From Ruania zhangjianzhongii (GTDB lineage: Bacteria; Actinomycetota; Actinomycetes; Actinomycetales; Beutenbergiaceae): a stretch of DNA of 64,000 nucleotides. The DNA lies in the NCBI RefSeq assembly GCF_008000995.1, contig NZ_CP042828.1:4206882-4270881 (forward strand), given 5' to 3'. How positions within the stretch are numbered: the stretch's first letter is position 1; the number at the start of each line of letters is the position of its first letter. Both the position numbers and the translations under genes were made by a program. The notes beneath the pieces were generated by a model that made no database searches, was not told the DNA's origin, and saw only the letters and a list, made by a program, of their open reading frames with translations. Of this stretch, positions 5,492-46,845 are shown in pieces.

Positions 5492-5685
5492 CGTCAGACC
5501 CCACGCATGCGCGCCTGCTGCACTGCGGCAACAGGCGCAACCCAACTCGGCATGACGACACCAGGAATGGCTGACTGCCCTTCACTCACGCGACCACCAC
5601 AGCATGGCGCACTGACCCGATCACCTTCGAGACTACTCCCCAGCGTCGTCCGCTGCTAGGAAACCGGGTATCGGTCCGCACCGCC

Positions 5686-6504
5686 TCAGGCCAGCGGTAC
5701 CACCTGCACACCGCGTGCCGCCAGCTCCGCTGCTCCCCCGTCGCGTGCTGTGAGCACCCAGAGCCCGCCGTCGTGCACGGCCACAGTGTGCTCCACGTGC
5801 GCGGCTCGGGAGCCGTCCGCACTGACCACGGTCCAGTCGTCCTCGAGCAGCCGGGTGGCTTCATCGCCGCGGGTGAGCATCGGTTCCACCGCCACGCACA
5901 GCCCTGGCCGGATCGACGGCCCACGCGGCCTGCGTGCGTAGTTGAACACGTCCGGTGGCTGGTGCATCGCGGTACCGATGCCGTGGCCGGTGTACTCCCG
6001 CACGATCCCGTAGTCACCAGCGGCATCCTCCACGGCGGCACCGACATCGCCGAGGCGGCCGCCACCGTCGAGCGCAGCGATACCGGCCCACATCGCGGCC
6101 TCCGTGGTCGCGACCAGCTGCTCGTCGGCCGGGTCGACCTGCGCCTCGTCACCAGGCACCACCACGGAGAACGCCGCGTCCCCGTGCCACCCGTCGACCA
6201 CGGCGCCGGCATCGACGGAAACCACGTCCCCGGCCCGGATCACCTGGTCACCGGGGATGCCGTGCACGATCTCGGAGTTCACCGATACGCAGAGCACTCC
6301 GGGGAACCCGTGATAGCCGAGGAAGTTCGACGTGGCCCCGGCGCCCGCCAACACGTCCCGGGCGACGGCATCCAGCTCACCGGTGGTGACTCCGGAGGCG
6401 ATCGCGGCGCGGACAGCGTCGTGGATATCGGCCACTACCAGCCCGGCCGTGCGCATCCGGCGGATCTGGTCGGGCTGCTTGTACTCGATCCCCCGGCCGA
6501 ACAT
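5686..6504 (-). CDS. map: Type I methionine aminopeptidase
   Basis: The enzyme removes the initiator methionine from nascent proteins. The 272-residue product has the pita-bread fold residues in order: substrate His81 (SEIVHGIP) and the dimetal ligands Asp98 (SVDAG), Asp109 (HGDAAF), His174 (GHGIG), Glu207 (VEPML) and Glu238 (HVEHT). It has no N-terminal zinc or SH3-binding extension. Its ATG directly abuts the adk stop codon, so secY-adk-map are translationally linked. The C-terminal 30 residues are a little longer than in E. coli. Confidence 0.95.
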   Translation of the reverse strand: MFGRGIEYKQPDQIRRMRTAGLVVADIHDAVRAAIASGVTTGELDAVARDVLAGAGATSNFLGYHGFPGVLCVSVNSEIVHGIPGDQVIRAGDVVSVDAGAVVDGWHGDAAFSVVVPGDEAQVDPADEQLVATTEAAMWAGIAALDGGGRLGDVGAAVEDAAGDYGIVREYTGHGIGTAMHQPPDVFNYARRPRGPSIRPGLCVAVEPMLTRGDEATRLLEDDWTVVSADGSRAAHVEHTVAVHDGGLWVLTARDGGAAELAARGVQVVPLA

Positions 6505-39098: not shown

Positions 39099-39171
39099 CA
39101 GGGTAGGAGGGACTCGAACCCACAACCGCCGGTTTTGGAGACCGGTGCGCTACCAATTGCGCCACTACCCT
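39099..39171 (-). tRNA. tRNA-Trp (CCA)
   Basis: The 73-nt cloverleaf has acceptor AGGGTAG pairing with CTACCCT, a CCA anticodon in the loop CTCCAAA, T-arm GGTTCGAGTCC and discriminator G. It lies directly upstream of secE on the same strand, the arrangement common in actinobacteria. CCA is not encoded. Confidence 0.95.
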
Positions 39172-39415: not shown

Positions 39416-40888
39416 ATGGCTGATATGGCTTCGAAGGATCGTCAGTGGCGGATGAGTGTGCGCACGCGTGCCCTCGCCGCCCTCATCGGTCTGGCTGCGT
39501 TGGCGATGGCCGCAGCCGGGATGACGGCCTACTCCTTGGAGCGCGACCACACCGCCCGAGTGATGGACGAGTCGCTCCTGCGCAACGCGGACGAGATCCG
39601 CACCCTGCACGAACAGGGGGTGGACCCCGCGACCGGGGACCCGTTCGCGTCGGTGGAGGCGGTCCTGCGCACCGCGCTGAGCCGAGTGGTGCCGGCGGAG
39701 AACGAAGCGGTGGCCGGATTCATGGGCGCCGAGCTGTCCCAGGTTCCGAGCGTATTCACGTCCTTCCGGATCCAGGACGACCCCGAGCTGTTGGCCGCGG
39801 TGGCTCCGGTGAGTACCTGGTCCAGCGCCGACATCATGACGGTGGACACCGACCAGCGCAGCTATCGCGTGCTCGGGCTCCCGGTGCAGAGTGGTGGCGA
39901 TGGGCCCGACGGTGCGGTGGTGCTCGCCTTCGACCTGGACGCCGAGTTCGCCCAGCTGAACAACACCTTCGGCACCTATGCGCTGGTGGCAGTGGTCGCG
40001 CTGGTCTGGATCACCGTGATCGGCTGGTTCGTGGTGGGCCGGATGCTGCTCCCGGTCACTGTGCTGCGCACTACGGCTGCCGAGATCAGCTCCTCCGACG
40101 ACCTGTCCCGCCGGGTCCCGGTGACCGGGAAGGACGATCTTGCTGCACTGAGCGAGACGGTGAACGGCATGTTCGCTCGGCTGGAGCATACGTTCGCCTC
40201 CCAGCGTCAGCTCCTCGACGACGTCGGTCACGAGCTGCGTACGCCCCTCACCGTGGTGCGGGGTCATCTGGAGCTGATGGACCCCACCGACGCAGCCGAT
40301 GCCGCGGACACCCAGGCGCTGGTCCTGGACGAGGTGGACCGGATGAACCTGCTGGTGGAGGATCTGATGACGCTGGCCAAGGCCCGGCGCCCGGACTTCG
40401 TCACCCTGATCGGCGTGGATATGGCACTGCTCACCGACGAGGTGCTTGCCAAGGCGCAGCCGCTGGGTGAACGCCGTTGGGTGTTGGACTCGCTGGCCGA
40501 CGTGCAGGTCGAGGCTGACCCGCGCCGTCTCACCCAGGCCTGGCTGCAGCTGGTCTCGAACGCGGTGAAGTTTTCCGCCGAAGGCTCGACCGTGGCTATC
40601 GGGTCGCGGTACTCGCCGTCGACGGGCACAGTGCGGCTGTGGGTCCGGGACGAGGGTGCGGGTATCGAGCCGGAGGACCAGGCGCGCATCTTCGAACGGT
40701 TCGAGCGCTTGAATCCCTCCGTCGACGGGACCGGGCTGGGGCTGTCCATCGTGTCCCTGATCGCCGAGGCACACGGTGGTCAGGTGGACCTGGAATCCAC
40801 TGTTGGCGCAGGGAGCACGTTCAGCATCGTCCTTCCGTTATCGCCCAGCGAGGCACCGCAACGTTCAGAAGAGAGGACAACCCGATGA
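39416..40888 (+). CDS. Two-component sensor histidine kinase (OmpR-system type)
   Basis: The 490-residue membrane kinase has two transmembrane segments (ALAALIGLAALAMAAAGMTAY and YALVAVVALVWITVIGWFVV) flanking an extracellular sensor of about 120 residues, then HAMP, the H-box DDVGHELRTPL with phospho-acceptor His near residue 272, the N-box NAVKFS, and G-boxes DEGAGIEPEDQARIF and GTGLGLSI. The start is uncertain: ATGs at 39416, 39425 and 39452 have weak ribosome-binding sites. Its stop overlaps the response-regulator ATG (ATGA). The signal is unknown. Confidence 0.88.
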   Translation: MADMASKDRQWRMSVRTRALAALIGLAALAMAAAGMTAYSLERDHTARVMDESLLRNADEIRTLHEQGVDPATGDPFASVEAVLRTALSRVVPAENEAVAGFMGAELSQVPSVFTSFRIQDDPELLAAVAPVSTWSSADIMTVDTDQRSYRVLGLPVQSGGDGPDGAVVLAFDLDAEFAQLNNTFGTYALVAVVALVWITVIGWFVVGRMLLPVTVLRTTAAEISSSDDLSRRVPVTGKDDLAALSETVNGMFARLEHTFASQRQLLDDVGHELRTPLTVVRGHLELMDPTDAADAADTQALVLDEVDRMNLLVEDLMTLAKARRPDFVTLIGVDMALLTDEVLAKAQPLGERRWVLDSLADVQVEADPRRLTQAWLQLVSNAVKFSAEGSTVAIGSRYSPSTGTVRLWVRDEGAGIEPEDQARIFERFERLNPSVDGTGLGLSIVSLIAEAHGGQVDLESTVGAGSTFSIVLPLSPSEAPQRSEERTTR

Positions 40889-41544
40889 GCCAGATCCTGA
40901 TCGCGGAGGACGAGGAGCGGATCGCCTCCTTCGTGGCCAAAGGGCTGCGCTCCGCCGGCTACTCCCCCACCGTGGTACCCACCGGGACCGAGGCGATCGA
41001 TCTGGCGAGTACCGGCGAGTTCGACCTGCTCATCCTGGACCTCGGCCTTCCGGACCGGGATGGCTTCGACGTGCTGAACACGATCCGCGGCCAGGGTGGG
41101 ACGATGCCGGTGATCATCCTCACCGCGCGGTCGTCGGTCACCGACACGGTCACCGGCCTGGAGAGCGGCGCCGACGACTACATGGCCAAGCCGTTCCGGT
41201 TCGAGGAGCTACTCGCCCGAGTGCGGTTGCGGCTGCGGGCCGAGCCGACCGGCGAGGGCTCGACCGTACTCAGCCACGACGGGCTCTCCCTGGATCTGCG
41301 CACTCGGCGGGCGAGCGTCGGCGGACGTGAGGTGGATCTGTCCGCGCGAGAGTTCACCCTGGCGGAGACCTTCCTGCGCAGCCCCCGGCAGGTACTCAGC
41401 CGCGAGCAGCTGCTCTCCCGGGTGTGGGGCTACGACTTCGACCCAGGATCGAACGTGGTGGACGTCTATGTGCGCTACCTGCGCAAGAAGCTCGGCGCGG
41501 ACCGGTTCGAGACGGTCCGCGGGATGGGCTACCGGCTCCGGTAG
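40885..41544 (+). CDS. OmpR/PhoB-family response regulator
   Basis: The 219-residue regulator has a receiver domain with acidic pocket EDEE (8-11), phospho-acceptor Asp52 (LILDLGLPD) and the MAKPF lysine, and a winged-helix DNA-binding domain ending DVYVRYLRKKLGADRFETVRGMGYRLR. It is co-translated with the upstream kinase. It converges on the low-complexity protein genes, and the repeated TGAGA/TCTCA sites there are plausible targets, by inference only. Confidence 0.92.
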   Translation: MSQILIAEDEERIASFVAKGLRSAGYSPTVVPTGTEAIDLASTGEFDLLILDLGLPDRDGFDVLNTIRGQGGTMPVIILTARSSVTDTVTGLESGADDYMAKPFRFEELLARVRLRLRAEPTGEGSTVLSHDGLSLDLRTRRASVGGREVDLSAREFTLAETFLRSPRQVLSREQLLSRVWGYDFDPGSNVVDVYVRYLRKKLGADRFETVRGMGYRLR

Positions 41545-41560
41545 CACTCCGGACACACGT

Positions 41561-41595
41561 CGGCCCCGGTACCGCACTGGGCAGTACCGGGGCCG
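41561..41595. terminator. Bidirectional terminator between response regulator and (SPNTPA)n gene
   Basis: A perfect 12-bp inverted repeat (41561-41572 with 41584-41595) with an 11-nt loop lies in the 68-nt convergent gap. It can act for both the two-component operon and the opposite repeat-protein gene. Confidence 0.75.
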
Positions 41596-41612
41596 GCGGG
41601 TGACTAGGACCG

Positions 41613-42179
41613 TCAGTCGCCAGAGTCAGCCGAGGGGGCGCTCTGCGGGCTGTTCGGGCTGTTCGGGCTGTTCGGGCTCTGCGGGCTCGCAGGGCTGTTC
41701 GGGCTCGCCGGGGTATTCGGGCTGGCCGGAGTGTTCGGGCTCGCCGGGCTGTTCGGAGTGTTCGGGCTCGCCGGAGTGTTCGGGCTGTTCGGGCTCGCCG
41801 GAGTATTCGGCGTGTTCGGGCTCGCCGGAGTGTTCGGGCTCGCCGGGGTATTCGGGCTGGCCGGAGTGTTCGGGCTCGCCGGAGTGTTCGGGCTGTTCGG
41901 CGTCCGCGGTGACTGAGCCGACTGGGCCGTCTGGGCGGACTGTGCGGTGATCGCGGTCGTCGCGCTATCCGACGCGACGTTGGCCGGATCGGCGGTCGCC
42001 TCGACGCTCCCACCGCCGGCGAGGGCAGCCTCGATCGTCGGCCCGGCTGCCTGCGCCACCTTGGCGGTGGTGCCGGCGTTGGACTGGGGCAGCCCGTCGG
42101 ACCCGGCGGCTGCTGCGGTGCCGGCGATTCCCAGCACACCCAGTGCGCCGGTCACAACCCATGCGGTACGCGTTTTCAT
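41613..42179 (-). CDS. Secreted low-complexity (SPNTPA)n repeat protein
   Basis: The 188-residue product has an N-terminal signal peptide (basic MKTRT, hydrophobic WVVTGALGVLGIAGTA, cleavage near TAAAA-GS). A short Ala/Gly region and an SAQTAQSAQS stretch follow. From about residue 90 to the end it is SPNTPA, SPNTPNTPA and SPNSPNTPA repeats. There is no sortase signal or C-terminal membrane segment. I do not recognise a named family. Its N terminus (TGALGVLGIAG) and Gln/Ser-rich tail resemble the neighbouring (GNGGS)n protein, so the two are likely paralogues. A TGAGA/TCTCA palindrome lies about 90-110 nt upstream. Confidence 0.7.
   Translation of the reverse strand: MKTRTAWVVTGALGVLGIAGTAAAAGSDGLPQSNAGTTAKVAQAAGPTIEAALAGGGSVEATADPANVASDSATTAITAQSAQTAQSAQSPRTPNSPNTPASPNTPASPNTPASPNTPASPNTPNTPASPNSPNTPASPNTPNSPASPNTPASPNTPASPNSPASPQSPNSPNSPNSPQSAPSADSGD
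41640..41915 (-). repeat. 9/18-nt repeat array encoding SPNTPA units
   Basis: The DNA consists of GC-rich 9-nt modules (AGCCCGAAC and ACTCCGGCG-like on the minus strand) combined into 18-nt and 27-nt units. All changes keep the frame, so the number of units can vary without breaking the gene. Confidence 0.8.
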
Positions 42180-42245
42180 GTCGTCTCCTCAGACTGTGGG
42201 TCCCGCACCCTGCGGGATCGTTCACTAGTGATACTGCTGCGGCTG

Positions 42246-42287
42246 GATGAGAGGACCAGGACAGGGCGGTGAGAGGTCTCTCATCTT
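42246..42287. promoter_or_regulatory. TGAGAG/CTCTCA operator-like site before the (SPNTPA)n gene
   Basis: The palindrome TGAGAGGTCTCTCA (42270-42283) continues as TCATCT, and a further half-site GGATGAGAGG lies at 42245-42254. The same motif, TGAGA-N4-TCTCATCT, occurs at 44168-44187 upstream of the APH-like gene. It is probably a regulator-binding site; the regulator is not shown by the sequence. Confidence 0.6.
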
Positions 42288-42312
42288 CCACGCGGAGTGC
42301 GTGCGGGCTCGA

Positions 42313-42825
42313 TCAGTCGTCGTCCGGCGAGTCTGCGCTCGGCGGAGACTGCGGGCTCTGCGGCGTCTGAGCGCTCTGCGCGGAGACCGGGGAGGCGAGC
42401 GAGACGGTCTCCGGTGCGTCGTCATCGTCCGACCCACCGTTGCCGGAGCCACCATTGCCGGACCCACCATTGCCCGAACCGCCGTTACCGGAACCGCCGT
42501 TGCCCGAGCCACCATTGCCCGAACCGCCGTTACCGGACCCACCATTACCGGACCCCCCGTTCCCGGAGCCACCGTTGCCGGAATCACCCGAGGAACCCTC
42601 CCCCGAGCCATTGCCGGACTGACCACCCGAGGTGCGTTCCTCGCTCGGCCGGGCTCCGCCGTCGTTGCCCGCTTCCGCCTGCTCGGTGACCTGCGGGCTC
42701 GGGGTGACCACGATCACCTCACCGGGTGCAGGGCTCGCCCCGCTCGGGCTGGTTGCCAGCACAGCGGCCACTACTCCGGCCACACCGAGCACACCGGTGG
42801 CCATCCAGGTCGTGTTCTTGCTCAT
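42313..42825 (-). CDS. Secreted low-complexity (GNGGS)n repeat protein
   Basis: The 170-residue protein starts MSKNTTWMATGVLGVAGVVAAVLA, a signal peptide or anchor. Then comes a charged segment (QVTEQAEAGNDGGARPSEERTSGG), ten uninterrupted GNGGS repeats, an acidic DDDDAPE and the tail SAQSAQTPQSPQSPPSADSPDDD. ATG 42825 follows GGAGG; it lies 19 nt after the APH-like gene and is probably co-transcribed. The tail shares the SAQ/PQSP and PSADS motifs with the downstream (SPNTPA)n protein. The family is not recognised. Glycine-rich exported proteins of this kind may be surface or linker proteins, but that is a guess. Confidence 0.7.
   Translation of the reverse strand: MSKNTTWMATGVLGVAGVVAAVLATSPSGASPAPGEVIVVTPSPQVTEQAEAGNDGGARPSEERTSGGQSGNGSGEGSSGDSGNGGSGNGGSGNGGSGNGGSGNGGSGNGGSGNGGSGNGGSGNGGSGNGGSDDDDAPETVSLASPVSAQSAQTPQSPQSPPSADSPDDD
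42432..42582 (-). repeat. Ten 15-nt repeats encoding GNGGS
   Basis: Ten consecutive 15-bp units encode GNGGS. Synonymous third-position differences between units indicate that the protein repeat is older than a simple recent slippage and is held by selection on the amino acids. Confidence 0.85.
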
Positions 42826-42844
42826 GATTCCTCCGTCGTGTTCC

Positions 42845-44125
42845 TCAGCTGTGCTCTGCCTGCGGCGCTTCAGCCACCAGGTGGTGCGCACGGCTGAGCC
42901 AGTCCTCTGCCGTTGCCAACCGCTGCCGGGCCTGGTCCGGTCCGGTACCCGCCACCAGGGAGAGCACCACCCCCGCCACACGTGCGGCCAGGGACGCCGG
43001 GTCGCAGGTGCGGGCGAGGACCTCGAACCACTCGAGTACCAGCTCATCCCCGTGCGGATAGATCGTGGGCGCCAGCGAGCGCAGCACCGCCAGATGCCCG
43101 AGCAGCGTGGCGAGATCGTCCTCGCGCACGCCGGGCCCGAGCGAGTCCAGGTCGATCACCCCGCTGACGCTCCCGGCGGCCGTGAAGATGTTCGCCTCGT
43201 AGAAGTCACCGTGGGTCGGGACCGTCGGTGACGTGGGCCGCTCGGCCAGCACGTCCTGCACGCCGGTCTCGATCGCATCGATCCGCGCGCCTTCCTCTGG
43301 GAGGGTGCCGCGGGCGGCAGCCGCGTGGAAGTCGACGCGATCCACCCAGGAGGACCGTGCGCCGAGCTCCAACACCCCCGCGGGGAGCTCGTCCAACCAG
43401 GCGACCACCTCTCGCGGGTCAGGCAGGTCCCCGGGATGGCTCCGAGCAGCCGCGATCGCCTCGGCCAGCGGACGCCCCGCAGCGGTGGCGAGCACCAGAA
43501 CTGTCGGCAGCGGGCGGGCCAGCACCTTCGGCGCCCGGTGCACCGGTGCCTCGAGCAGTCGATGCCGCCGTTCCAGCCGGCGGGCGCGCCGCTCCGGGAG
43601 CACCTTGAGGTAGCAGGTCGTCCCGTCCACGCTCGCGCGGATCACTGCGCGCCGGGTGGGCCGGTAGCTGAGCAGCTGGATCCGCGCAGGGCCGCCGTTG
43701 CCGACGCCCACGTCCCGCAACCACCCACCTACGGTGGCCGGATCGAGCGCCTGCTCCAGCCCAGGCAGAACCGGGTCCTGCGCGCGGCGCCACACCCGCA
43801 CGGTCCGTACGCCGTCCTGGAGCACCGCCACTCCCGGGCCGTCCGGGACCTCAGCGGTCGAGGCAACCAGGTATTCGCTCACCTGCACCCCGGCGACGGC
43901 GTAGCCCACCCGGTATCCGACGCTCACCCCGGCACCGGGCCGGTGGTGCACGGAGTCCACCTCGGCGGCCCACTCGGTGATGGTCTCCCCGTCCGGATCG
44001 GGAGAGGCGTGTCGGCCCGGTGCGCCTGCCCGGCCGGAGCCGATGACGGCGAGGCGGAGCAGCTCACCGGCGTCAGAACCGGTGAGTACCTCGATCGTCG
44101 CGCGCTCGAGCGCAGGGCTGGACAT
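42845..44125 (-). CDS. Aminoglycoside-phosphotransferase (APH)-fold kinase
   Basis: The 426-residue protein has the APH/choline kinase-type catalytic loop THGDFYEANIF (near residues 303-313) and the metal-binding VIDLDSLG some 15 residues later, with an N-lobe containing TTCYLKVLPE as the ATP-lysine region. An unusual N-terminal domain of about 130 residues comes first. The APH family phosphorylates small molecules including sugars, choline and drugs; no substrate can be assigned. It is first in an apparent operon with the (GNGGS)n gene. ATG 44125 is chosen; the frame is open to 44185. Confidence 0.78.
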   Translation of the reverse strand: MSSPALERATIEVLTGSDAGELLRLAVIGSGRAGAPGRHASPDPDGETITEWAAEVDSVHHRPGAGVSVGYRVGYAVAGVQVSEYLVASTAEVPDGPGVAVLQDGVRTVRVWRRAQDPVLPGLEQALDPATVGGWLRDVGVGNGGPARIQLLSYRPTRRAVIRASVDGTTCYLKVLPERRARRLERRHRLLEAPVHRAPKVLARPLPTVLVLATAAGRPLAEAIAAARSHPGDLPDPREVVAWLDELPAGVLELGARSSWVDRVDFHAAAARGTLPEEGARIDAIETGVQDVLAERPTSPTVPTHGDFYEANIFTAAGSVSGVIDLDSLGPGVREDDLATLLGHLAVLRSLAPTIYPHGDELVLEWFEVLARTCDPASLAARVAGVVLSLVAGTGPDQARQRLATAEDWLSRAHHLVAEAPQAEHS

Positions 44126-44167: not shown

Positions 44168-44187
44168 AGATGAGAAAGCTCTCATCT
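44168..44187. promoter_or_regulatory. Perfect AGATGAGA/TCTCATCT palindrome between APH gene and add
   Basis: AGATGAGA and TCTCATCT form 8-bp arms around AAGC in the 91-nt divergent gap. The site is 43-62 nt upstream of the APH ATG and 30-49 nt upstream of the add GTG. It matches the site before the (SPNTPA)n gene, so it may coordinate these transcription units. Confidence 0.65.
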
Positions 44188-44216: not shown

Positions 44217-45260
44217 GTGGTTCGAGATCTGCGCGCCCTGCCGAAGGCACACCTGCACCTGCACTTCACCGGATCGATGGACCCGCGCACCCTGGTGGAG
44301 CTGGCCGACCAGCAGCGGATCTCGCTGCCCGATTCCCTCCGTGCCGCAGTGGCCCCGGATGCGGCGCTCCGGCTGCCCGCCAACGAGCGTGGCTGGTTCC
44401 GGTTCCAGCGGATGTATGACGCCGCCCGAGCCGTGGTGCGGTCGGAGGAGGTGATGCGTCGGCTGGTGCACGAGGCCGCGGCGGCCGACGCCGCCGAAGG
44501 ATCACGGCGGCTCGAGCTGCAGGTGGACCCGACCTCCTACGCCCCGTTCGTCGGCGGGATCACCCCGGCGCTGGAGATCGTCCTGGACGCGGCACGCCAG
44601 GCCAGCGCCGCCACCGGGGTGGAGGTGGCGATCATCGTGGCCTCGTCCCGGACCCGGCACCCGCTGGACGCACGGACGCTGGCCCGGTTGGCGGCACGGC
44701 ACGCCGATGACGGGCCCGGTGGGGTGATCGGTTACGGCCTCAGCAACGACGAGCGCCGCGGGGACACCTCCGAGTTCGCCGGTGCCTTCCAGATCGCCGC
44801 CCGGGCCGGCCTCGCCCTGGTGCCGCACGGTGGCGAGCTGCTCGGTCCGGGACATGTGCGAGAGGTCGTGGCCCATCTGCACCCGGACCGGCTCGGGCAC
44901 GGGGTGCGCGCGGCCGAGGACCCCGCCCTGCTGGACCGGCTGGTGGCGGACGGTATCGCGTTCGAGGTGTGCCCGGCCTCGAACGTCTCCCTCGGGGTGT
45001 ACGCCCGGGCCACGGACGTCCCCCTGGCCACGCTGCACGCTGCCGGCGCGCAGATCGCCCTCGGTGCCGACGATCCCTTGCTGTTCTCCTCCCGGCTGCT
45101 CGCCCAGTACGAGGCCGCCCGGCAGGTGCACGGATTCAGCGATAGCCAGCTGGCCGATCTGGCCCGCTCCTCGATCACCACCTCGCGTGCGTCGGGGAGC
45201 ACGAAGGCGCAGCTCCTCAGCGAGGTGGACGAGTGGCTCGCCCAGCCCGCAGGCGACTGA
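44217..45260 (+). CDS. add: Adenosine deaminase
   Basis: The enzyme hydrolyses adenosine to inosine in purine salvage. The 347-residue protein has the metal motif KAHLHLHFTGS (metal His14 and His16), the PHGGELLGPGH region, HPDRLGHGVRA, the catalytic CPASNVSLGVY, and GADDPLLF near the C terminus. The HFTG variant in place of HLDG is common in actinobacterial ADAs. It uses a GTG start without a strong ribosome-binding site and converges on the paralogue pair downstream. Confidence 0.92.
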   Translation: MVRDLRALPKAHLHLHFTGSMDPRTLVELADQQRISLPDSLRAAVAPDAALRLPANERGWFRFQRMYDAARAVVRSEEVMRRLVHEAAAADAAEGSRRLELQVDPTSYAPFVGGITPALEIVLDAARQASAATGVEVAIIVASSRTRHPLDARTLARLAARHADDGPGGVIGYGLSNDERRGDTSEFAGAFQIAARAGLALVPHGGELLGPGHVREVVAHLHPDRLGHGVRAAEDPALLDRLVADGIAFEVCPASNVSLGVYARATDVPLATLHAAGAQIALGADDPLLFSSRLLAQYEAARQVHGFSDSQLADLARSSITTSRASGSTKAQLLSEVDEWLAQPAGD

Positions 45261-45285: not shown

Positions 45286-46014
45286 TCAGGCGTCCTGGCG
45301 CACCGGGTCGCTCGGCGAGAACCAGCCGGTGAACAGGCGCCACCCGTCATCGAAGTGACCGCCGCGCACGTACAGGTACTGCTCGTCGGTCAGCGGCTCG
45401 TCACCGACGTAGGCCCAGGCGCCGCCGCTTCCGGTAACCGAGAGCTCGAGCTCACCGTCGGCGGGCGAGATCAGGGTCAGGTGCCCGCGGGCGTCATCGG
45501 ACATTCCTACCTGGAGGTCGCCGAAGATCGGGTACTCCCCCGAGCGGGCGATCACCGGGTCCGTCTCCGCCAGCTCCACCTCCGGGTCGACCGTGCCCGA
45601 CAGGTGGTCGGACTCGGTGTGCACCACCAGGGCGGCGAACTCGCCGCCAGGCGCCACCCCGACGATCAGGCGCTCCGCCGGGGAGTCACCGCCACCACCT
45701 TCGGGGTGTTCGGCCAGGTGCACCACCCAGTGGGTTCCGGGCTGGTCGAGCAGGCTGAGCCGCTCGACCTGTTCTGCGGAGGGTGCCTCGGCGCCGCTGG
45801 CCAGCATCGCCTCCGGGTCCTCGGCCACCCCGGCTACGTACTCCTGCGCGGTCTCGATGGCGCTCTCGTCGCTCTCCGGGATCGAGCACCCGCACGCCGC
45901 GGAGTCGCCGAGCACCAGCACCAGGACTCCGACCACGACGGCGACCAGCACGAGCGCACCGGCCAGGACGACCTTGCGCCGGGTCCAGCGCCACCGGCCG
46001 GCGGCCTCAGTCAT
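45286..46014 (-). CDS. Membrane-anchored CxCSIP protein (paralogue 2)
   Basis: This 242-residue protein has a basic start (MTEAAGRWRWTRRK) and one transmembrane segment (VVLAGALVLVAVVVGVLVLVLG), and then the extracellular motif CGCSIPESDESAIETAQEYV. The body contains VARSGEYPIFGDLQVGMSDDARGHL and ends GGAWAYVGDEPLT...FSPSDPVRQDA. It is clearly paralogous to the upstream gene, whose last codons overlap its ATG (46014 versus stop at 46007). I do not recognise the family; it is likely a surface-exposed protein with a disulfide or metal-binding CxC. Confidence 0.7.
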   Translation of the reverse strand: MTEAAGRWRWTRRKVVLAGALVLVAVVVGVLVLVLGDSAACGCSIPESDESAIETAQEYVAGVAEDPEAMLASGAEAPSAEQVERLSLLDQPGTHWVVHLAEHPEGGGGDSPAERLIVGVAPGGEFAALVVHTESDHLSGTVDPEVELAETDPVIARSGEYPIFGDLQVGMSDDARGHLTLISPADGELELSVTGSGGAWAYVGDEPLTDEQYLYVRGGHFDDGWRLFTGWFSPSDPVRQDA

Positions 46015-46726
46015 CCTCGGTGACCGGATCAGACGGGGAGAACCAGGCGGCCCCGAACCACCAGGCATCGTCCGACGAGCGCTGTCCGCCACGCACGTAC
46101 CGGTACTCCTCCTCCTGCAACGGCTCCGCACCGACATACGCCCAGGCGCCGCCGTTTCCGGTCACCGAGAGCGCGATCGGATCGCCGGCGAGCGGGACCA
46201 CCGCGAGGCGCCCGCGGGCATCGTCCGACATCCCGACGTTCAGCTCGCCGAAGATCGGGTACTGGCCGGAGCGGGCGATCACCGGCTCGGTCTCCCTTGC
46301 CTCCACCGCCGGGTCCACTGTGCCCTGCTCGTAGTCGGTCTCGGTGTGCACCACCAGCGCCGCCACCTCCCCTTCGGGTGCGATACCGACGACCAGCCGC
46401 TCGGCGGGTGAACGCCCGTAGCCACCGTCGGGTCGCTCGGTGACGAGCACGGTCCAGGTGGTGTCCGGGTGATCGAGCAGGCTGAGCTGGCTCACCTGCT
46501 CAGCCGTGGGGGCCTGGGCGTCCTCGGCCAGCATCGCCTCCGGTGCCTCGTCCACCCCGGCCACGTACTCCTGCGCGGTGGCGATCGCGTCCTCCTCGTT
46601 CGGTGGGATCGAGCAGGCGCAGGAGGCCGAGCTGCCGATCACCAGCACCACCACGCCCACGACGACGAGCAGCACCACGAGGATCCCGGAACCGATAGCG
46701 ACCTTGAAGCCGATAGAACGCGCCAT
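46007..46726 (-). CDS. Membrane-anchored CxCSIP protein (paralogue 1)
   Basis: The 239-residue protein starts MARSIGFKVAIGSGILVVLLVVVGVVVLVIG, a single N-terminal membrane anchor, followed by SSASCACSIPPNEEDAIATAQEYVAG. It shares with its neighbour LSLLDHPDTTWTV, SPAERLVVGIAPEGEVAALVVHTE, VIARSGQYPIFGELNVGMSDDA and the C-terminal GNGGAWAYVG and FSPSDPV. The start at 46726 places the anchor correctly; the frame is open to 46795. It lies in one overlapping pair, so the two are co-translated. The function is unknown. Confidence 0.7.
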   Translation of the reverse strand: MARSIGFKVAIGSGILVVLLVVVGVVVLVIGSSASCACSIPPNEEDAIATAQEYVAGVDEAPEAMLAEDAQAPTAEQVSQLSLLDHPDTTWTVLVTERPDGGYGRSPAERLVVGIAPEGEVAALVVHTETDYEQGTVDPAVEARETEPVIARSGQYPIFGELNVGMSDDARGRLAVVPLAGDPIALSVTGNGGAWAYVGAEPLQEEEYRYVRGGQRSSDDAWWFGAAWFSPSDPVTEDD

Positions 46727-46845
46727 GTCCCGAACCTTGCCAGGGCGAGTCCGCGCCGTCGATGGGCACAACTGTCCCTCCCACAGCGCCGACATCTGGC
46801 GTGCGCCAGCGCCGGCCGACCATCCAGCACGGCTACGGTGGAGCG

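Follow-up and report, generated by a model that had tools for sequence, protein, structure and literature searches.

Several described systems share features with the locus considered here, which occupies positions 39416–44125 of a 64,000-nt stretch of the Ruania zhangjianzhongii genome (NZ_CP042828.1, 4,206,882–4,270,881; hereafter, the window) and contains genes for a sensor histidine kinase (HK), an OmpR/PhoB-type response regulator (RR), a kinase of the APH fold, and two low-complexity proteins with predicted export, A and B. Judging from sequence comparison, the locus probably belongs to a conserved actinobacterial regulon, in which an envelope-sensing pair switches on the APH-fold kinase together with exported, Ser/Thr-rich, disordered proteins. 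The preliminary description of this DNA knew of no named system of such composition, and we too found none in the open-licence literature, where searches for such proteins, for a TCTCA-type site, or for the genus gave no description; apparently, the locus exemplifies a regulon that is widespread and undescribed.

CutRS of Streptomyces is likewise an envelope-facing HK–RR pair with exported targets. CutR recognizes TAWATAAA, and the sensor CutS carries a pair of conserved cysteines on its extracellular side (PMC12802291). In the loci studied here the conserved site is TGAGA-N4-TCTCA, the HK has no cysteine in its whole length, and the targets are others; CutRS was set aside because its published site differs. 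MtrAB of actinobacteria is also an OmpR-type pair, and the MtrA and MtrB profiles are among the better NCBIfam matches, but they score below the cut-offs (179.1 bits vs. 300 for MtrA, 175.4 vs. 450 for MtrB), and this assignment was rejected. MacRS of Streptomyces was considered as well, for its palindromic site. It was dropped, as MacR is classed as NarL-type in a review (PMC9739842).

For the APH-fold kinase, the first Foldseek match is mycobacterial maltokinase (4u94, E 2.8e-9), from which it differs by 17% identity and an rmsd of 12.7. Aminoglycoside 3'-phosphotransferases share the PF01636 fold and the catalytic motif, but the kinase is extended at its N-terminus by about 115 residues (structure comparison is a poor test of residues 1–113), and a resistance gene was rejected by the APH_3p score, which at 28 bits is below the 205 required by NCBIfam. 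LxmK, the kinase of class V lanthipeptides, dehydrates residues jointly with the lyase LxmY; a LxmY-type partner is absent among the window genes scanned beside the kinase. The kinase matches LxmK in fold, and LxmK provides a precedent for phosphorylation of Ser/Thr on a ribosomal peptide (PMC12141560). TvaE (8jsu), also among the Foldseek matches, seemed at first to be a kinase that modifies peptides. However, TvaE and the related RosX have been described as kinase-fold proteins without canonical catalytic residues (PMC12291118), and LxmK is thus the sole precedent used.

Co-conservation of the pair, the kinase and the repeat genes

The components named in the preliminary description were recovered by Pfam searches and repeat counts. 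The HK gene (39425–40888, plus strand; HAMP, HisKA, HATPase_c) overlaps the RR gene (40885–41544, plus strand; Response_reg, Trans_reg_C) by 4 nt, and the combination of a HisKA and HATPase_c kinase with a receiver and Trans_reg_C regulator is that of an OmpR/PhoB two-component system. The earlier remark on convergence is borne out: the RR gene and the gene of protein B (41613–42179, minus strand; 188 aa) end at a strong hairpin (41558–41598; −44 kcal/mol for the fold of 41545–41612), likely a bidirectional terminator. Also on the minus strand are the gene of protein A (42313–42825; 170 aa) and the APH-fold kinase gene (42845–44125; PF01636, E 4.8e-10), with 19 nt from the kinase stop to the start of A. 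The nearest named loci by kinase identity are those of Ca. Ruania gallistercoris (84%, L032) and R. albidiflava (76%, L033).

The functional link between these genes had been deduced from proximity, convergence and a shared site, with co-conservation in related genomes proposed as a check. A search with the kinase alone yielded 58 loci, 5 of which, near contig ends, were set aside; in the 53 usable loci, the pair, the operator TGAGA-N4-TCTCA, and an open reading frame (ORF) with triplet repeats were scored anywhere in the fetched sequence, the triplet test using no N-terminal pattern. Loci with the HK/RR pair have a perfect operator in 29/30 cases and a triplet ORF in 29/30, compared with 0/23 and 1/23 (the latter in Jonesia, L049) for loci without the pair, and co-conservation thus supports the link. 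Most related loci have an RR with 60–95% identity (48% in L035). One to four short exported proteins are encoded there between the kinase gene and the pair, which usually converges with the kinase, whereas pair and kinase point the same way in L070 and L071. A 4-nt overlap of the kinase stop with the start of a repeat gene occurs in 13 loci (12 ATGA, 1 GTGA), and in 13/13 of these the operator is near the kinase start.

A search with the sensor domain matched 174/396 genomes of the order at E ≤ 1e-12, paralogues included, and 20 further loci were read out of a larger number of strong matches. The kinase, the pair, and a triplet gene are all present in L226 and L227. L222, L223, and L231 have the order HK–RR–kinase–exported repeat protein on one strand, the repeat protein being of a T/N/D type, and the adjacency of kinase and repeat gene thus survives rearrangement. 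The kinase and the pair are found in L232 and also in L219, in the latter together with an Asp-tailed protein; L233 has the pair and an acidic protein, the kinase being elsewhere in that genome (G164). The pair and the operator are accompanied in L229 (G299) by one ORF of ambiguous kind, with the kinase only as a weak match, and in L215 (G238) by a kinase whose coding sequence is divided between two frames; the latter locus yielded no repeat gene. Five loci (L216, L217, L218, L220, L221) have the pair, with no low-complexity exported ORF passing the filter except part of ada (adenosine deaminase) in L216; in L216, L220, and L221, HK and RR are accompanied by ada, and both the kinase and the repeat gene are missing from the locus. 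In L224, L225, L230, and L234 the RR is only 46–47% identical, and these were taken as paralogues; L228 gave no RR match. L198 (G345), fetched by its operator, has the pair and the operator, and no exported low-complexity ORF was found there.

Overall, no exported low-complexity ORF was found at the locus in seven pair-bearing genomes: in five the kinase is only a weak match (E > 1e-8; G022, G080, G226, G345, G382), in G238 it is split, and in G318 it lies elsewhere. Conversely, all 5/5 repeat-positive genomes with no kinase match at the fetched repeat locus have the kinase elsewhere (G066, G133, G286, G357, G386), by which apparent cases of repeat genes without the kinase (L126, L129, L134) were ruled out. 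The kinase and the repeat gene therefore tend to be present or absent jointly where the pair exists, the kinase alone being common where the pair is absent.

Several observations weigh against a single regulon. Among the usable pair-less kinase loci, 22/23 have neither operator nor triplet ORF, so the kinase has a longer history or a broader distribution than the other parts of the system. In Jonesia (L049) the kinase and a repeat gene are retained with no pair nearby, and in G229 (L124) a kinase lies beside an apparently decayed family member, again with no pair nearby; a genome related to Jonesia, G106, has the kinase and is not among the 174 sensor-match genomes. Some related pairs adjoin exported poly-Asp proteins instead (L188–L192; L219, L233). 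Finally, the loci are kin by descent, so that locus counts overstate the number of independent events. A housekeeping role of the kinase is conceivable, though we rate it somewhat below an even chance: the enzyme would act on a small molecule in sugar or nucleoside salvage, perhaps together with ada, and the pair and the repeat genes would have settled alongside later. The overlap of the kinase and repeat genes in 13 loci, their joint absence, and the adjacency kept in rearranged order speak against it.

A multi-box operator and the proposed regulation

The shared site of the preliminary description, TGAGA-N4-TCTCA, is present without mismatches at 42270–42283 and 44171–44184, and it recurs in relatives as a conserved operator. 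The whole genome (5.1 Mb) has four perfect copies, these two among them. When one mismatch is allowed, 28 genomic places match, compared with 20 for the reversed control pattern; the bare palindrome is therefore not strongly enriched genome-wide and says little, and the signal is carried by the multi-box form. Upstream of B this form reads TGAGA-N4-TCTCA-N6-TGTCC-N6-TCTCA (42248–42283, minus strand), the first box lying 104 bp upstream of the B start. The palindrome at 44171–44184 is flanked by the kinase gene and the divergently oriented ada (44217–45260, plus strand; NCBIfam NF006849, above cut-off).

The operator was examined upstream of 85 genes from 58 loci, picked as the repeat family by an N-terminal pattern combined with a composition and triplet filter; not all loci are from separate genomes (L119 belongs to the genome of the window, L122 and L123 to G007, L078 and L082 to G031). 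The 7-mer GATGAGA/TCTCATC, which led to the operator, occurs in 56 upstream regions against 4.3 expected. The palindrome is found within 300 bp upstream of 54/85 genes, and of half-site spacings from 0 to 20, N4 accounts for these 54/85, N14 occurs in one, and no other spacing is seen; shuffled half-sites and the first 300 bp inside genes both gave 0. For 18 more genes near matches were found, the three boxes together having no more than two mismatches in 15 letters, so that the multi-box operator precedes 72/85 genes (54 exact palindromes and 18 near matches). One further gene (in L134) has five mismatches, and the remaining genes (12/85) directly follow the kinase. In the consensus of the 54 promoters there are two additional boxes, (T)CTCC and another TCTCA, with boxes 2, 3, and 4 at 11-bp steps; past the last box, at 13 and 17 bp, A (83%) and T (94%) are conserved, and the median distance between the first box and the start codon is 101 bp. 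The 36-bp form occurs in 71/396 genomes of the order and 17/394 genomes of the class, the reversed control being found in one genome in each set, and the operator is present in 27/109 sampled genera of the order.

That the genes are chance neighbours with no functional link is very improbable. The low complexity of A and B may be cited in its favor, and we found nothing further; the kinase-seeded co-occurrence, the survey of the 36-bp operator, and the spacing controls contradict it.

PhoB-like regulators recognize boxes that are repeated in direct orientation, about every 11 bp, ahead of a −10 element. In the regulon that we propose, the sensor kinase would read an extracytoplasmic cue, and the phosphorylated regulator would bind the TCTCA boxes, one inverted and three direct, 11 bp apart, ending just upstream of a −10-like element. 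Binding of this regulator to this operator is suggested by the co-occurrence of the pair and the operator, and activation by the position of the boxes just upstream of the −10-like element. The regulator would activate the kinase–A operon, B, and a distant B-like copy, and the products would be an active APH-fold kinase that stays intracellular and disordered proteins that are exported; ada is perhaps under the same operator as the kinase. The region of HK between its two membrane helices is modelled as a PAS-like fold (pLDDT 92.8), and its Foldseek matches include 4zr7 and the sensor domains of SrrB and WalK, all of them weak (best E 1e-4); hence, the sensor region is predicted to be extracytoplasmic and PAS-like.

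The predicted exported repeat family and the APH-fold kinase

Protein A has GNGGS exactly ten times in its core, (GNGGS)10, followed by a triplet tail and an Asp-rich end, whereas protein B consists of [ST]-[PA]-x triplet repeats with SPNTPA exactly seven times; the matching DNA arrays were detected by TRF at 42429–42588 (A) and 41646–41900 (B). Neither protein matches Pfam, or NCBIfam above cut-off. Their N-termini are alike, with a short basic part and a hydrophobic stretch, and their C-terminal ends are ...SAQSAQTPQSPQSPPSADSPDDD in A and ...SPQSAPSADSGD in B, so that the similarity of signal peptides and tails noted before stands. A and B are members of one family, by N-terminus and tail and beyond mere low complexity. 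B is a plain member, and A, which has a Gly/Ser core in the middle, is included on account of three features, namely the N-terminus, the position behind the kinase, and the tail of triplets; counterparts of A directly follow the kinase in other Ruania loci.

An alignment of 19 sequences shows a shared N-terminal pattern like TxWIVTGALG, with M, W, L, and G invariant. In the 85 proteins, Ser/Thr is found at positions −3, −6, and so on to −30 from the C-terminus in 79–85% of cases, and at the positions between in 2–11%; the periodicity of this set was partly selected by the filter, but the C-terminal phase was no selection criterion. The best-frame share of Ser/Thr in the last 60 residues is 0.85, compared with 0.42 after shuffling, the second triplet position is mostly Pro (0.43) or Ala (0.38), and the last residue is Asp in 65/85 proteins. 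In a polyproline-type helix, Ser/Thr at every third residue with Pro/Ala would put the hydroxyls on one face. Such one-sided hydroxyls would suit a modified wall-lining chain, whether modified by mannosylation or by phosphorylation by the coupled kinase, and the exported chains most likely form a stalk or shield, rich in hydroxyls and open to modification, that lines or spans the cell wall.

One version of this role, possible but in our estimate distinctly short of probable, is a mucin-like wall protein: A, B, and their relatives would be substrates of protein O-mannosyltransferase (PMT) and make up a glycan-bearing layer of the wall, with the kinase in an accessory role. It agrees with the Ser/Thr–Pro/Ala triplets and with the lack of Cys after residue 35 in 85/85 proteins. 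A PMT-family match is present in 55/59 relatives, the genome of the window included, but PMT is near-universal in the group and so does not discriminate; besides, the repeat-positive genome G008 has no PMT match (its assembly is 89% complete).

The kinase has an intact catalytic site and is predicted to be active. The family features are present, namely the profile match, the catalytic HGD...N and DxD motifs, and the kinase fold (model pLDDT 93.8), and K174, H305, G306, D307, D325, and D327 are invariant in 42 kinase sequences. Within the proposed regulon, the kinase would act on the same pathway, with either the exported protein or a small hydroxyl-bearing precursor as its substrate. That it phosphorylates Ser/Thr of the repeat proteins before export, yielding a secreted phospho-Ser/Thr polymer that binds, e.g., cations or minerals, has the LxmK precedent and seems unlikely: the kinase is present without a repeat gene in the bare pair-less loci counted above, and the fold does not choose, as the closest structures include methylthioribose kinase and maltokinase. 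Still more doubtful is the stricter form, in which the pair would drive a dedicated APH-fold protein kinase and a translationally coupled exported substrate, phosphorylated along one face to give a cation- or mineral-binding envelope material.

Family members also occur outside the complete locus. The preliminary description held that repeat genes in relatives lacking the kinase or the pair would speak against the link. In part this is seen, in Jonesia and G229, which lack the pair nearby, and in lone repeat genes (L119–L123); for the latter, however, the full locus is present in the same genomes, and the promoter is kept with one or two mismatches. A third member in the genome of the window, (SAQ)n (G000:C2:4980111-4980599, L119), lies 0.73 Mb from the window, with neither kinase nor pair within the 12 kb fetched, and retains three scored boxes with two mismatches; the gene just upstream of it we take to resemble a cation antiporter gene. 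In extra copies in G007 and G010 (L120–L123), three boxes are kept with one or two mismatches. Since all these copies keep the promoter layout, they look like members of the regulon rather than exceptions. The suggested compact five-gene locus therefore holds as regards linkage, but the link is wider, with B-type copies elsewhere in the genome.

A search with the repeat family matched 93/396 genomes at E ≤ 0.05, the weak matches not being trusted, and 35 regions were fetched, of which L145, L151, L152, and L153 have no such protein. L124 (G229; local 5646–6048, minus strand) has a family-like N-terminus followed by unrelated sequence up to the stop, and looks like a decayed family copy. In L067, L068, and L069, two tandem family members are nearly identical inside each genome, which suggests recent duplication or conversion.

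Through the regulon thus outlined, an exported family whose two members in the window match no family would gain a regulator, an operator site, and an enzyme as partner. The strict three-residue register, the overlap with the kinase gene, and the specific operator make the function of these low-complexity secreted proteins directly testable.

Related sites and neighbouring genes

In L188–L192 (family f12), the operator recurs ahead of genes for exported proteins of the type CEWDD...ECDDDD(n) with poly-Asp tails, next to related HK/RR genes (RR 59–61% identical); these loci are a poly-Asp version of the system. L222, L223, and L231 have a second exported acidic ORF, with PDEDEPDED-like repeats, upstream of HK beside a palindrome. 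In L187 and L194 the palindrome is upstream of ORFs that presumably resemble PepSY-type lipoproteins, and in L195 and L196 operators are near HK/RR pairs, with no exported gene identified among the genes listed.

By eye, one of the two other perfect palindromes of the genome stands before the gene of a large secreted protein and the other before a GntR/ABC-transporter cluster. The latter site (L185, local about 4999; G000:C2:4695498) has an extended palindrome, GATGAGAGCCCTCTCATC, before genes of a GntR-like regulator and an ABC transporter, and may be due to chance or be another target.

A tRNA gene (39099–39171) lies ahead of HK. On the other side, ada adjoins the kinase also in loci without the HK/RR pair, e.g., L036, L040, and L042. 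Two adjacent minus-strand ORFs (45289–46137 and 46010–46795), with no Pfam family above cut-off, are similar to each other, both containing a CSIP motif as well as a membrane segment, and are probably tandem paralogues.

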